Shown one piece after another: positions 5,547 through 47,823 of a stretch of 53,379 nt of DNA. Both the position numbers and the translations under genes were made by a program. Location of the stretch: NCBI GenBank assembly GCA_017453505.1, contig JAFTEU010000060.1, forward strand, positions 1-53,379, given 5' to 3'. Position 1 is the stretch's first letter. Every line of letters starts with the position of its first letter. Origin of the DNA: Muribaculaceae bacterium (GTDB lineage: Bacteria; Bacteroidota; Bacteroidia; Bacteroidales; Muribaculaceae). Below the pieces are notes generated by a model, which ran no database searches, was not told the origin of the DNA, and saw only the letters and a program-made list of their open reading frames with translations.

Positions 5547-5579
5547 ATTCAAATTCCTGTAATCTTATTTAACCGAATT

Positions 5580-5588
5580 GCAAAGGTA
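5580..5588 (-). promoter_or_regulatory. -7 promoter box for trpS
   Basis: The minus strand reads TACCTTTGC, an exact consensus match, 34 bases upstream of the trpS start. It is divergent from the kinase promoter less than 40 bp away. Confidence 0.65.
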
Positions 5589-5616
5589 ATCATTATTTTT
5601 GAATCAAGAAAATGTG

Positions 5617-5625
5617 TATCTTTGC
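5617..5625 (+). promoter_or_regulatory. -7 promoter box for the kinase gene
   Basis: TATCTTTGC is an exact consensus match, 30 bases before the kinase start codon at 5655. Confidence 0.65.
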
Positions 5626-5654
5626 ATTCTAAATAAAACTACTGCTTTGCGACA

Positions 5655-7082
5655 ATGACAACCGACTCGGGATGGGATAACGAGATGAAAACGGCTGATG
5701 TGGGTCACACCTTCACCGACATCACGCCGCTGGGCGGACATCAACACGGCTACTGCGACGTGTACCGTGCCCGCCGTCATGGCAAGTGGCACGTCCTGAA
5801 GGCCTTGAAGCCGCAGTATCGCGACACACCTGCCTGCCAGGCCATGCTGCGCAAGGAGTTTGACATCGGTTTCCAGTTGTCGCACGTCGGCATTGCCGCC
5901 ACTCTGGGGCTGGAAGATGTGGATTCCCTGGGTCAATGCATTATCGAGGAATGGGTGGACGGCGTGAGACTAGACCAATTCATTGCCCGTGAAGATTACA
6001 CCGCCGCCAAGGCCCGGGACATCATTGTGCAGTTGTGCGAGGTGTTGAAATATATCCATGCCCACCAGGTGATACACCGCGACCTCAAGCCCAGCAACAT
6101 CCTCATCACAGCCGACGGCGACCGCGTCAAGGTCATCGACTTTGGCGTGAGCGATACCGCCAGTCACACGATCTTCAAGGGGCCTGCGGGAACCCAAGAC
6201 TTCACCGCCCCCGAATTGCTGGCAGGTCAAGCGGCCGACTCCCGTGCCGACCTCTACTCCCTGGGCATCATCATCAGACTGATAAACAGCCACCTGCCTC
6301 GTGCCGATCGACAGTTATCCAAGTTTGCCCAATGGTGCAGTATGGCCGATCGTGACCAGCGCCCAGCAGGAGCCAACCAGGTGCTGGACGCCCTCCAGCG
6401 CCCCACCAAGTCGCTCCGCTATATTTTCATTGCCGCCGGTATATTTGCCACATTGCTGATCGCGACGGCAATAGCGATGGTCATCAAGTTTGGCCAGCCC
6501 AAGCAAGAAACTCCTGCCAATGCGCCCGCAGACGACACTACAGCAGTAATTGACACCATAGTTGACACCACTCTAGTCGATACCACCCGGGCTAATGCAA
6601 CCGAAGTCAGCACAACCGATGGCACCAACGACAGAGCAGAAACTGGCTCTCAGTCTGCCCAACCTTCTCAACCTGCTCAGGAACCCGCCCAAAAAGAAAC
6701 GACCGACAAGTTGTCACCCTTAGTACGCCAGAAATTCATGGCCAAGGCCGCCAGCGTGGGGATGCTCGAGGCTATCGGCTACAAGGATGAACTTGACGAG
6801 ACACTCAGGCTTCAAGGCAAGGATGCCTTTGACAACGATATTACCGAATTCTTGAAAGACAGAATCGAGGGCCGCCTCGTTCACGAGGCTAACAACATGT
6901 TTATCAATGATTTGGGACATAACAAGGCCATGCGTGAATTCCTGCTCACACCCGAGGGGAAGCGCATGTTGAGCGCGGGGCGCAAGGTGGCCTTTGAGTA
7001 TGCTCAAGATAGGCTACATCAACTTTACCCCGATCTGGACATCCCCCCCTTCCCCTACAACAAAACCGAATGGTTCGACTAA
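5655..7082 (+). CDS. Transmembrane eukaryotic-type Ser/Thr protein kinase
   Basis: The 475-residue protein has an N-terminal Hanks-type kinase domain (about 20-250). The ATP-binding Lys is K49 (VLKAL), the likely alpha-C Glu is E68, the catalytic loop is HRDLKPSN (141-148), the metal-binding motif is DFG (162-164), and APE (185-187) closes the activation segment. The glycine-rich loop is weak (LGGHQHG). A single membrane helix spans about 256-278. A Thr/Asp/Gln-rich linker follows, then an ~120-residue mostly helical outer domain with no family I recognise (about 355-475). The layout suggests a sensor kinase, with the kinase in the cytoplasm and the helical domain in the periplasm. It is convergent with two zinc-ribbon membrane proteins, which may be functional partners (inference). 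The ligand and substrates are unknown. Confidence 0.85.
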   Translation: MTTDSGWDNEMKTADVGHTFTDITPLGGHQHGYCDVYRARRHGKWHVLKALKPQYRDTPACQAMLRKEFDIGFQLSHVGIAATLGLEDVDSLGQCIIEEWVDGVRLDQFIAREDYTAAKARDIIVQLCEVLKYIHAHQVIHRDLKPSNILITADGDRVKVIDFGVSDTASHTIFKGPAGTQDFTAPELLAGQAADSRADLYSLGIIIRLINSHLPRADRQLSKFAQWCSMADRDQRPAGANQVLDALQRPTKSLRYIFIAAGIFATLLIATAIAMVIKFGQPKQETPANAPADDTTAVIDTIVDTTLVDTTRANATEVSTTDGTNDRAETGSQSAQPSQPAQEPAQKETTDKLSPLVRQKFMAKAASVGMLEAIGYKDELDETLRLQGKDAFDNDITEFLKDRIEGRLVHEANNMFINDLGHNKAMREFLLTPEGKRMLSAGRKVAFEYAQDRLHQLYPDLDIPPFPYNKTEWFD

Positions 7083-44576: not shown

Positions 44577-44664
44577 GGAGTGATGCTCGAGTGGCTGAAG
44601 AGGCACGCCTGGAAAGCGTGTATACGTCAAAAGCGTATCCCGAGTTCGAATCTCGGTCACTCCG
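44577..44664 (+). tRNA. tRNA-Ser (anticodon GGA)
   Basis: The 88-nt class II tRNA has acceptor stem GGAGTGA/TCACTCC, a G discriminator at 44664, and anticodon stem CACGC/GCGTG around loop CTGGAAA, with anticodon GGA reading UCC and UCU codons. It has a long variable arm (as in all tRNA-Ser) and T arm CGAG-TTCGAAT-CTCG. CCA is not encoded. It is transcribed alone, between its own promoter (44552) and terminator (44669-44695). Confidence 0.96.
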
Positions 44665-44668
44665 CTCT

Positions 44669-44695
44669 AAAGGACGACTGTTGTCGTCCTTTTTT
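44669..44695 (+). terminator. Terminator of tRNA-Ser
   Basis: AAAGGACGAC-TGTT-GTCGTCCTTT followed by TTT is a canonical intrinsic terminator. Confidence 0.85.
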
Positions 44696-44759: not shown

Positions 44760-45665
44760 CTACTTGGATGATAAGGTGGCGATGTCTTTTGCTAGGTGAT
44801 TGAGTTGCAGGCACTGGTCGCGGGTATTTTTCTTTTTCTCGCTGTGATAGGGCCAGGGGGCTATGAAGAGTAACTGTCCTCTGGCACAGGCATCGAATTG
44901 CTGTCCGCCTGGTTTCCACATGGCGGAGAAACCATTCTCAAGTAAAATGATTTCCTGTATTCCTGCTTCGAAGGCGGTTCTCATCACTGCTTTTTCGCAG
45001 GGGCTGATGCATGGTGAAACCAAAATGGCACCGTCCCGTGCCATTGCCAAGTAGCGGTTGACTTCGTGCGCTATCGCTTCCTCGGTATTGATACTTCGTG
45101 AGCATTGCACGACGACCTTGAAAGGATGGTCAAGCAAGAATCGGTTGCCAGCTATGGCGACTTTTGTATCTCCTACGGTGATGTCTTGCTGGACGGTGAA
45201 AAACTCGGGATGATGTTGTTTGGTCCATAGTCGGCGGGGATTGTCATGCAGGTAGTTCAACATGGTTCCCAACTGCCCTTTGTTAATCAGGATTCTGTCA
45301 TGGTATCCCTCTTCCCAAAGGGTCGTTCCCAACAATTCCCGTGCCGCAGCATTGCATCCCACCTTGAAGCCATTCACTACTTTGCCCAGGTGGTAGGGAA
45401 CCTGGCGGGTGATGAAGAGGACGCCATGCACATGGTCGGGCATGATTTGGGCGTCAATTACTTTTACCTCGGGGTAATGAGAGGGAATGGCCTGCCAACA
45501 GTCTAGAACCCGTTGCCCCAAGGCGGTAGGGCGGATCCATGGCTGCGGGTGATGCTCGTCAGGGTCACAAAGTACTCCCAGCACGGGCTTGCGTCCTTCC
45601 ACTGCCATGGTGACCATGTAGATGCAGCGGCTGTGGTAGTCGCGCCAAGCATTGCGGCGTTTCAT
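44760..45665 (-). CDS. REP-associated-type tyrosine (Y1/HUH) transposase with extra C-terminal domain
   Basis: The 301-residue protein falls in two parts. Residues ~1-150 are a Y1_Tnp/RAYT-like HUH endonuclease: the metal-binding His pair is H78 and H80 (MPDHVHGVLFI), and the nucleophile is probably Y138 (MLNYLHDNPRRLW). Residues ~165-295 form a second domain of alternating strands and helices (FKVVVQCSRSI; GAILVSPCISPCEKAVMRTA; IQEIILLENGF; GQLLFIAPW), which looks like a Rossmann-type DprA/SLOG nucleotide-binding unit. RAYTs are normally shorter, single-domain proteins that act on REP palindromes. No terminal repeats or cargo bound it, so it looks domesticated or single-copy. Mirrored palindrome clusters occur elsewhere in the window. 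Confidence 0.8.
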   Translation of the reverse strand: MKRRNAWRDYHSRCIYMVTMAVEGRKPVLGVLCDPDEHHPQPWIRPTALGQRVLDCWQAIPSHYPEVKVIDAQIMPDHVHGVLFITRQVPYHLGKVVNGFKVGCNAAARELLGTTLWEEGYHDRILINKGQLGTMLNYLHDNPRRLWTKQHHPEFFTVQQDITVGDTKVAIAGNRFLLDHPFKVVVQCSRSINTEEAIAHEVNRYLAMARDGAILVSPCISPCEKAVMRTAFEAGIQEIILLENGFSAMWKPGGQQFDACARGQLLFIAPWPYHSEKKKNTRDQCLQLNHLAKDIATLSSK

Positions 45666-45781
45666 GGAGCGGTTTACTTGGTAGTCGCTTCCGTGCTACT
45701 GCCACCATTGCCTGCGTCTCTCGTCGCGCTCGTGCCGGGGATTCTTCATGATTGATCTTTTCTTAACAGGGTGAATTTACA

Positions 45782-45848
45782 GACCGGTGGCCTGCACTAC
45801 TGCAACGGTCTCGTGTCGTGTGTTGCGGTAATGCGAGCCACCGGCTCG
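45782..45848. repeat. Long imperfect palindrome between OPT and transposase genes
   Basis: ACCGGTGGC pairs with GCCACCGGCT, and TACTGCAAC pairs with GTTGCGGTA (one wobble), leaving a loop GGTCTCGTGTCGTGT. It lies upstream of the transposase gene and downstream of the OPT gene. It may be the OPT terminator or a REP-like palindrome tied to the transposase. The rest of 45666-45858 holds no gene. Confidence 0.6.
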
Positions 45849-45858
45849 TTAATGGGGA

Positions 45859-47823
45859 TTAGTCCTCCTTCTTGGCGCGCAGGCAGGAGACGGCAAGGAA
45901 GAGAATCAGGGCGATGTACATGACAATGCCCAGGATGTTGCTGGCAGTGTCGCCAAGCGGATTCTCGTACTTGAAGCCGAAGAAGATCATCGCTGCGCTC
46001 ACGACACCCATGAGGGCACCACCGGCAATGAAACCGGATGCCAACAGGGTACCACGCTCCTTGCGTGCCTTGTTAACGGCCTCGTCCTTGCTGCGGGTGC
46101 CGACGAACCAACTAACGATCGCGCCGACGAGCAGCGGGGCATTCAACTGCAAGGGGATGAACATACCCAGCGAGAAGGGCAGGGCAGGCACCTTCAACCA
46201 GTTGAGCAGCAAGGCCAAAATGGCACCCACGCCATAGAGTAACCACGGTGTCTCACCACCCATCATGAGCGGCTTGATGACGGCTGCCATGGCGTTGGCC
46301 TGGGGTGCAACCAGGGCGTTTTCGCCCGTGAAGCCGTAGGCCTCGTTGAGGATAATCATCACACCGCCGACGGTAGCTGCCGACACGAGGGTGCCGACAA
46401 ATTTCCAGGTCTGCTGCTTGGCAGGAGTGGTGCCAATCCAGTAACCGATCTTCATATCGGTCACCATACCGCCAGCCATTGACAGGGCGGTGCAAACCAC
46501 GCCACCAATCACCATAGCGGCAACGATACCCTTGGAACCGTTGAGGCCGATAGCCACAAAGATGACGCTGGCCACGATAAGGGTCATCAGGGTCATACCC
46601 GACACGGGGTTGCTGCCCACGATGGCGATGGCATTGGCTGCCACGGTGGTGAACAGGAAGGCGATGACCAGCACAACGATAAAGGCGACAACCGTCTGCA
46701 TCAGGTTATGGATCACGCCAATGTAGAAGAACACGAAGGTCACCAGCAGGGCGGCCAGCAGGGCAAACACAAGCACCTTCATCGAGATGTCACGCTGGTG
46801 GCGTTCTACCTGCACGTTTTGGTCTTGACCCTTGAAAGCCTGTCCGGCAAGTCCGGCGGCGTTCTTGATAACGCCCCACGACTTGACGATGCCGATGATA
46901 CCACTCATGGCGATACCACCAATACCGATATAGCGGGCTCCGCCGGCAAAGATCTCGTCGGGTGACATCTGGGCAAAGTCAGGATTCATGCCCAGCAGGG
47001 GAACGATGACCCACCAGATGAAGGCGCTACCGGCAAAGATGATGAACGCATAAGGCAGGCCGATGATGTAGCCCAGACCCAATACAGCGGCACCGGTATT
47101 GATCTTGAAGATCATTTTCACGTTGTTGGTGAAGTTCTCCATTGCGGGAATGGCTTGGGTGGTGAGCACCTCTTTCCACCATCCGAAGGTCGAGAGCAGG
47201 AAGTCATACAGACCACCCACCAGACCGGCAATGAGCAGCGGACGGGCCTGGTCACCGCCCTTCTGGCCGCTGACGAGCACCTGGGTGGTCGCGGTAGCCT
47301 CGGGGAACGGGAACTTGCCGTGCATGTCGCTCACGAAGTACTTGCGGAATGGGATAAAGAACAAGATACCCAAAATACCACCCAGCAATGAGCTGAGGAA
47401 TACTTCCAGGAAGTTCACGGTGATTTCGGGGTACTCGGCCTGCAGGATATACAGGGCGGGCAGGGTGAAAATGGCACCGGCCACGATGATGCCCGAAGCG
47501 GCACCAATCGACTGGATGATGACATTCTCGCCCAGCGAGTTCTTGCGCTTGGTTGCAGCGCCAATACCGGCTGCAATGATAGCAATGGGAATGGCAGCCT
47601 CAAACACCTGGCCCACCTTGAGGCCCAGATAGGCTGCGGCGGCACTGAAGATGACCGCCATGATCAGACCCAGCGAGACCGAGTAGGGTGTAATCTCGGG
47701 ATACGTCTTGTCGGGCTTCAAGATGGGGACATATTTCTCCCCCGGCTTGAGCTCGCGAGCGGCGTTGTCGGGCAACGACATGTCGTCTTGCTGATCTTGA
47801 ACAATGATTTCTTCGTCTTTCAT
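45859..47823 (-). CDS. OPT family oligopeptide/metal-chelate transporter
   Basis: The 654-residue integral membrane protein has about 15 hydrophobic helices. The N-terminal cytoplasmic stretch (1-45) leads into TPYSVSLGLIMAVIFSAAAAYLGL, the typical OPT opening. Further family blocks are PFPEATATTQVL (about 172-183) and an NPVSGMTLMTL segment near 408. OPT proteins carry peptides or metal-siderophore complexes; the bacterial branch is mostly annotated as oligopeptide transporter, and the substrate here is unknown. It has its own promoter (47894-47886). Confidence 0.88.
   Translation of the reverse strand: MKDEEIIVQDQQDDMSLPDNAARELKPGEKYVPILKPDKTYPEITPYSVSLGLIMAVIFSAAAAYLGLKVGQVFEAAIPIAIIAAGIGAATKRKNSLGENVIIQSIGAASGIIVAGAIFTLPALYILQAEYPEITVNFLEVFLSSLLGGILGILFFIPFRKYFVSDMHGKFPFPEATATTQVLVSGQKGGDQARPLLIAGLVGGLYDFLLSTFGWWKEVLTTQAIPAMENFTNNVKMIFKINTGAAVLGLGYIIGLPYAFIIFAGSAFIWWVIVPLLGMNPDFAQMSPDEIFAGGARYIGIGGIAMSGIIGIVKSWGVIKNAAGLAGQAFKGQDQNVQVERHQRDISMKVLVFALLAALLVTFVFFYIGVIHNLMQTVVAFIVVLVIAFLFTTVAANAIAIVGSNPVSGMTLMTLIVASVIFVAIGLNGSKGIVAAMVIGGVVCTALSMAGGMVTDMKIGYWIGTTPAKQQTWKFVGTLVSAATVGGVMIILNEAYGFTGENALVAPQANAMAAVIKPLMMGGETPWLLYGVGAILALLLNWLKVPALPFSLGMFIPLQLNAPLLVGAIVSWFVGTRSKDEAVNKARKERGTLLASGFIAGGALMGVVSAAMIFFGFKYENPLGDTASNILGIVMYIALILFLAVSCLRAKKED

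Follow-up and report, generated by a model that had tools for sequence, protein, structure and literature searches.

The closest described relatives of the gene discussed here are the RAYT/TnpA_REP proteins, which, in the passages of PMC8266576 that concern them, recognise a tag and a palindrome on one strand and cut via a Tyr-5′P link. The REPtron Sm of S. maltophilia, as presented there (PMC8266576), has REPs with an 8-bp palindrome, a 3-nt loop and a tag placed directly before the palindrome. In the TnpA_Y1 classification, a table gives Y-x-x-x-N-P as the signature of class 2, REPs are listed for subclass 2.4, which includes Bacteroidetes, and other C-terminal domains are described for TnpA_Y1 proteins, with DprA unmentioned in the main text (PMC6006769). 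One survey records GTAG repeats in Proteobacteria, Cyanobacteria, Chloroflexi and the PVC group (PMC3733652). Among the open-licence PMC literature, judged by title, no paper joining RAYT/HUH with DprA/SLOG was found.

The window, by which we mean the whole analysed stretch of 53,379 nucleotides from a Muribaculaceae bacterium, contains an ORF at 44760..45665 on the minus strand, recognised by ORF calling and by its relatives and encoding 301 aa from the ATG chosen in an earlier sequence-only reading. Its product is very probably a RAYT fused to a DprA-derived domain, an identity drawn from profile and motif comparisons. With regard to history and setting, we lean towards a Bacteroidales RAYT/TnpA_REP whose DprA-derived C-terminal domain was gained essentially once, and which, together with REP/REPIN hairpins, makes up a REPtron-like unit. 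That the DprA-like domain serves in ssDNA binding or dimerisation is a proposal we hold to be evenly balanced. The ORF is bordered on one side by a 654-aa membrane protein, OPT (oligopeptide) transporter-like by eye (45859..47823, minus strand), which served as the anchor for locus comparison. On the opposite side of the fusion gene lies a tRNA-Ser (GGA) at 44577..44665 on the plus strand, adjoined by a perfect, terminator-like 10-bp hairpin at 44669..44692 found by inverted-repeat search. By eye, no tnpB adjoins the gene among the window ORFs.

On its motifs and profile matches, the N-terminal part of the window ORF is a RAYT/TnpA_REP-type HUH nuclease. The Y1/HUH core, residues 66-141 (45243..45470, minus strand), matches Y1_Tnp with an E of 0.0031, under the Pfam cut-off, and residues 67-145 match the NCBIfam model REP_Tyr_transpos at 3e-8, with 33.7 bits, so that its cut-off of 80 is not reached. 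At E up to 1, Y1_Tnp is matched by 30 of the 32 relatives (best 4.8e-8) and REP_Tyr_transpos by all of them (best 3.5e-14). The sequence-only reading had named a RAYT-type HUH domain with H78 and H80 followed by Y138, and it was right in this: the three residues (codons 45432-45434, 45426-45428 and 45252-45254, minus strand, computed from the ORF) are invariant in alignments of 32 and of 76 rows, as are N142 and P143, which together with Y138 make up the class 2 signature Y-x-x-x-N-P. Searched against PDB, the HUH profile found IS200 TnpA structures (2xm3, 1.7e-4) and, weakly, TnpA_REP 4er8 (0.19). In PHROGs, phrog_2577 (transposase) was matched by 13 of the 32 members and no family by the window protein.

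A scan of named genomes gave 163 relatives, 80 of which were kept, and after L051, L070, L073 and L078 (stops or a broken frame) and L077 (partial) had been dropped, 75 relatives remained. In L078, a short insert with a stop, at about 5560-5730, interrupts the fusion gene inside the DprA-like domain. An in-frame Met lies up to 45 aa upstream of the ATG of the sequence-only reading in 74 of the 75 relatives, 50 of the 75 fit an extension motif, and the family frame begins about 25 codons upstream of this ATG. The ORF proposed earlier is real; its proposed start differs from that of the family, and the window copy holds only remains of the family's conserved N-terminal extension (45666..45749, minus strand, recognised by comparison with relatives), with a TAG inside it at 45696-45698. 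The window copy may start at the ATG, or it may be a shortened or weakened gene; an assembly error at the TAG is possible.

Beyond the HUH part, about 140 residues are conserved along their whole length in the family. Profile comparisons place residues 158-301 (44763..45194, minus strand, delimited by profile and PDB matches) as homologous to the Rossmann fold of DprA (SLOG). A profile of this domain alone, built from 32 copies and searched against 395 genomes from the phylum with up to 10 candidates scored per genome, matched all seven copies of the own genome and, in nine further genomes, a single protein each (E 2.8e-10 to 5.2e-4). All nine match PF02481, six of them above the cut-off and three, standalone proteins of 159-196 aa, below it; the canonical DprA L154, which carries DprA_WH, was found at 1.9e-6. 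Against PDB, the best four of 11 matches were DprA (0.011-0.023), and with three standalone relatives added the best four of 13 were likewise DprA, with 3uqz at 3.8e-5. When the domain was compared by hhalign with 29 DprA rows not selected by similarity, the score was 29.2 (E 8e-4, probability 24%), against 23.6 for the HUH half, 16.9 for reversed columns and a maximum of 20.7 among 40 shuffles. An earlier comparison with 18 of 30 DprA loci, the others having been missed by a motif filter, gave E 0.0023 and 12.6%, and the 94% reached with added intermediates is biased, because these proteins had been selected by the domain profile itself.

A chance resemblance, or a generic likeness among Rossmann folds, would account for the modest hhalign values on independent rows, for ribosomal S3 (0.53) as the next PDB match below DprA, and for the window tail, which on its own matched no Pfam or NCBIfam family. 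We nevertheless regard this as highly improbable, since every further genome match of the domain profile is a PF02481 protein, the alignment to DprA is collinear from G-N-x-x-L-L through S-R to a conserved N, and the hhalign controls score lower. The Rossmann domain of DprA/SLOG type suggested by the sequence-only reading is thus borne out by profile matches, whereas a match of the single window tail to Pfam DprA/SLOG models did not appear; for the HUH half, Y1_Tnp was matched, albeit below cut-off. Only 2 of the 32 fusion proteins match PF02481 at all (best E 0.066), short of the gathering score. In the fusions, the glycine-rich loops of DprA are altered, with C-S-R instead of G-S/T-R and, in the second loop, S-P-x-I-S-x-x-E-K instead of S-G-x-A-x-G-x-D, and the domain stops after the Asn motif, before the final portion of the DprA fold. 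Because of the changed loops and the missing end, we speak of homology to DprA and not of membership. A separate dprA is present in the genome of the window, on contig C43.

In regard to function, R190 (codon 45096-45098, minus strand, computed from the ORF) is an Arg in 96 of 101 rows and, in the PDB profile alignment, is paired with R48 of the DprA chain from H. pylori. Residue 282 is R in 83 rows and K in 6, and stands seven positions before the invariant N289, just as K133 stands before N140 in DprA, a correspondence of spacing and not of a scored alignment. In the mutant data of PMC4489622, ssDNA binding by DprA was about 50-fold weaker for R48A/R49A and nearly 75-fold weaker with K133A added, and R52 of HpDprA and R115 of SpDprA are given as a conserved ssDNA contact in the relevant part of PMC4066776. 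We infer that R48 and R52 of HpDprA are one residue in two numberings, and the residues matched to DprA would point to contact with ssDNA rather than with a nucleotide. Three cysteines are also conserved in the 101 rows: C188 in 86, C260 in all and C285 in 97.

SLOG domains of the LOG type act on or bind nucleotides, and PGGxGT is their motif. ThsA-type SLOG domains likewise act on or bind nucleotides, as stated for ThsA in the abstract of PMC11204291, and by analogy with both the DprA-like domain could, in line with a suggestion of the sequence-only reading, be a nucleotide-binding sensor that switches the nuclease on or off. PADLOC fits such a role insofar as PsyrA is matched weakly by 3 of the 32 members (best 0.0022); JetD is matched by one, and the window protein matches no PADLOC model. 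We consider a sensor unlikely, given the ssDNA contacts among the DprA-matched residues, the absence of PGGxGT from the 32-row alignment, and an hhalign similarity to LOG (24.3) below that to DprA, although this last comparison is a weak test, with shallow alignments and a score of only 16.7 for DprA against LOG. Across the 32 members, matches to 12 Pfam families were found, and PF03641 (LOG) is not one of them. Another explanation, to which we assign a similarly low probability, is that the domain binds neither DNA nor nucleotides and has a structural role or mediates protein contacts, for example dimerisation or an interaction with RecA or the replisome. The loss of the DprA glycine loops and the shortening of the domain would suit it, and so would the other uses of DprA surfaces, since DprA dimerises via its Rossmann fold (PMC4489622, in the part on the dimer) and its surfaces also serve dimerisation and RecA contact (corresponding sections of PMC4489622 and PMC4066776). 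The retention of R190 and of a basic residue 282 (89 of 101 rows) speaks against it.

The fusion family is a family of gut and rumen Bacteroidales. The 80 kept relatives come from uncultured Bacteroidales, Bacteroidia, Muribaculaceae, Prevotellaceae and Porphyromonadaceae, several of them from ruminants. In the family sample, at least 81 of 198 genomes match, some via the HUH part only, with at least nine matches in the richest genome and, among the matches listed, 14 of the 16 genomes of the same genus. Of the 295 genomes in the order sample, 161 match, many via single-domain proteins. Outside family f1, full fusions were found at eleven loci in f74, f96, f110, f135, f155 and f164, so that, f1 included, they occur in at least seven Bacteroidales families. 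The tree of 61 HUH domains, midpoint-rooted and with a bootstrap not fully settled, separates 17 single-domain rows from the 43 fused ones, which are joined by a single-domain row, L175; the branch between the two groups has support 100/100. In this tree the fusions form essentially one clade, which fits one fusion and one later loss.

Both halves are under purifying selection, with dN/dS of 0.04-0.12 in seven pairs, at a dS often near or above 1. The sequence-only reading took the fusion for a domesticated system rather than a selfish transposon, and the gene does behave as a long-resident one, judging by this result, by a genomic site common to six relatives by DNA alignment, and by the lack of matches in viral contigs, the plasmid collection and the phage collection. 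The same three results weigh against a selfish insertion element that still moves as a unit with the flanking REPINs as its ends. Such an element would explain why some fusion genes, e.g. L003 and L005, have a REP pair on either side, and why one genome holds several paralogs: eight own-genome matches represent seven genes, the window's included, one of them in two pieces. These copies are, however, 46-73% identical to the window protein (38% for one piece), unlike recent IS copies. Mobility would also be in line with the patchy presence at one locus. At transporter-anchored loci of the same genus, the fusion occurs in 3 of 29 others within the 1.5 kb examined (one cut by a contig end), two have the tRNA-Ser but no fusion between the same neighbours, one is a deletion remnant, and the other 23 have none of these (L290 is short). 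The remnant, L267, keeps the REPIN beside the transporter anchor, together with the beginning and the final codons of a gene whose middle is gone, and thus records loss via an internal deletion. All in all, we deem a selfish element quite improbable. Downstream of the gene in L038, L040 and L041, insertions of about 2.5, 4.4 and 3.0 kb precede the resumption of the tRNA-side sequence, a possible insertion hot spot.

The statement of the sequence-only reading that no terminal repeats flank the gene did not hold. An inverted-repeat search found a REPIN-like inverted pair at 45775..45853, with arms at 45775-45806 and 45822-45853 that are 75% complementary and with CTAC/GTAA tags facing inwards; one of 200 shuffles folds equally well (z -3.3), and by eye the pair is kept in the orthologs L264, L269 and L274 and in the remnant L267. 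A lack of repeats is therefore no argument for domestication, as REP-like elements flank the window gene and many of its relatives. When hairpins were defined by a GT[AG]N tag, an 8-bp stem with one mismatch allowed and a 3-5-nt loop, up to 300 bp from the gene, they adjoined 36 of 76 family genes compared with 5 of 237 background segments, and 40 of the 76 loci failed this test, among them the window's own pair, with its worse stems. Out of 60 tags, 27 were GTAT, 20 GTGG and 2 GTAG, with GT[AG]G in 22. Hairpins that are not terminator-like were found up to 250 bp upstream of 42 and downstream of 35 of the 74 relatives with enough flank, and the same scan on other ORFs of those loci gave 20 and 19 of 159, respectively. 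Judged by eye, one REP type is shared by the genes of a sub-branch, with different types in other sub-branches.

Two REP patterns were then counted in genomes. Pattern 1 had 21 matches in the own genome against 1 in the control, and in 16 genomes patterns 1 and 2 had 100 against 7 and 15 against 0. Up to 400 bp from a fusion gene there were 22 matches (one intragenic) and 12, where 0.19 and 0.03 were expected. Both patterns derive from flanks in the own genome, which makes the matches there partly circular; in the other genomes, 17 of 79 and 8 of 11 matches lie within this distance. No match of pattern 1 was found in the fusion-bearing genomes G040, G079 and G156, and two genomes with no detected fusion gave two matches of each pattern (G109) and one and none (G173). 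A pattern with the wrong loop spacing had 5 matches against 8 in the control and was replaced by pattern 1. The tail of the window's own REP shows no enrichment in the genome (17 matches against 36 in the reversed control). A stem pattern searched in the window had 9 matches where 4.97 were expected, a number reached by 5 of 100 shuffles. A generic scan for a hairpin plus tail, covering 0.30 Mb of the own genome, had 4 matches, one being the window's, and is uninformative, because other tails gave 1 to 25.

Other REPs form tandem arrays with a period of about 92 bp at contig ends: L256 (own contig C121, 2394-2600 and 3889-4110), L257, L258, and the starts of C58 and C93. Because of this position, a count of REPs in the draft genome is probably too low. 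On C121, the two arrays bracket an unrelated ORF. Inside the genes, hairpins in the HUH-Y linker were found in 4 of 74, at 1.75 per kb compared with 0.97 elsewhere, which is unconvincing as a whole. Individual linker hairpins that leave the frame unbroken were seen in L020 (gene bases 327-353), and also in L006, L017/L090, L023 and L096.

By analogy with the biochemistry of TnpA_REP, the HUH domain of a RAYT with a DprA-derived domain would recognise a tagged single-stranded REP hairpin and cut beside it through a covalent link between Y138 and DNA. The DprA-like domain, if its conserved residues are a guide, may add ssDNA binding through R190 and the basic residue 282, and perhaps dimerisation, and the enzyme could thereby keep hold of the two REPs of a REPIN, or of the surrounding ssDNA. 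A more far-reaching version, which we offer as speculative and rather unlikely, is that the HUH part nicks REP hairpins that lie open in single-stranded DNA while the DprA-like domain catches the ssDNA released and favours annealing or the loading of RecA at that place, so that gene conversion or gap repair would be programmed to occur at REPINs. If true, REP cutting would be coupled to homologous recombination, a host function explaining the long retention of RAYTs. More generally, a DprA-derived domain on RAYTs under strong selection gives a handle on why bacteria keep them; the fusion suggests that ssDNA capture or recombination could be part of the RAYT job, and it singles out Y138 for cutting and R190 and residue 282 for ssDNA.

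Compared with the known systems, the fusions share most with RAYT/TnpA_REP proteins, class 2 of TnpA_Y1 in the classification table of PMC6006769: the HUH and Tyr core with Y-x-x-x-N-P is the same, a W precedes the Tyr motif in most close fusion members as in RAYTs, and REP-like hairpins, which adjoin RAYT genes, lie beside many of the fusion genes too. The REPs of the fusion family also repeat the layout of the REPtron Sm, with a tag, an 8-bp stem and a 3-nt loop, and hairpins in the HUH-Y linker, reported for subclass 2.4 in the corresponding part of PMC6006769, are present in some fusion genes. On the other hand, the fusions differ by their length of about 300 aa, by the DprA-like domain at their C terminus and by tags that are mostly GTAT or GTGG, not GTAG. 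The resemblance to IS200/IS605 TnpA (class 1) is more distant and concerns the HUH fold, as the Y-x-x-x-Q of that class is absent from the fusions, which have Y-x-x-x-N-P, and so are nearly identical copies, the own-genome ones being 46-73% identical. With DprA/Smf (PF02481), the C-terminal domain shares the first part of the Rossmann fold, the preceding strand (G-N/D-x-x-L-L) and the conserved Arg, and it differs in being joined to an HUH domain, in its changed glycine loops, and in the absence of SAM, DML1 and the final part of the Rossmann fold. By eye, one standalone DprA-like protein, L151, has restriction, Fic and RhuM-like ORFs nearby, a setting that would suggest a defence island. L149, L151 and L153, all standalone and themselves devoid of an HUH domain, are three of the five best non-fusion profile matches (2.8e-10, 8.1e-9 and 1.6e-6), and they share both C-S-R and S-x-x-x-S-x-x-E with the fusion domain.
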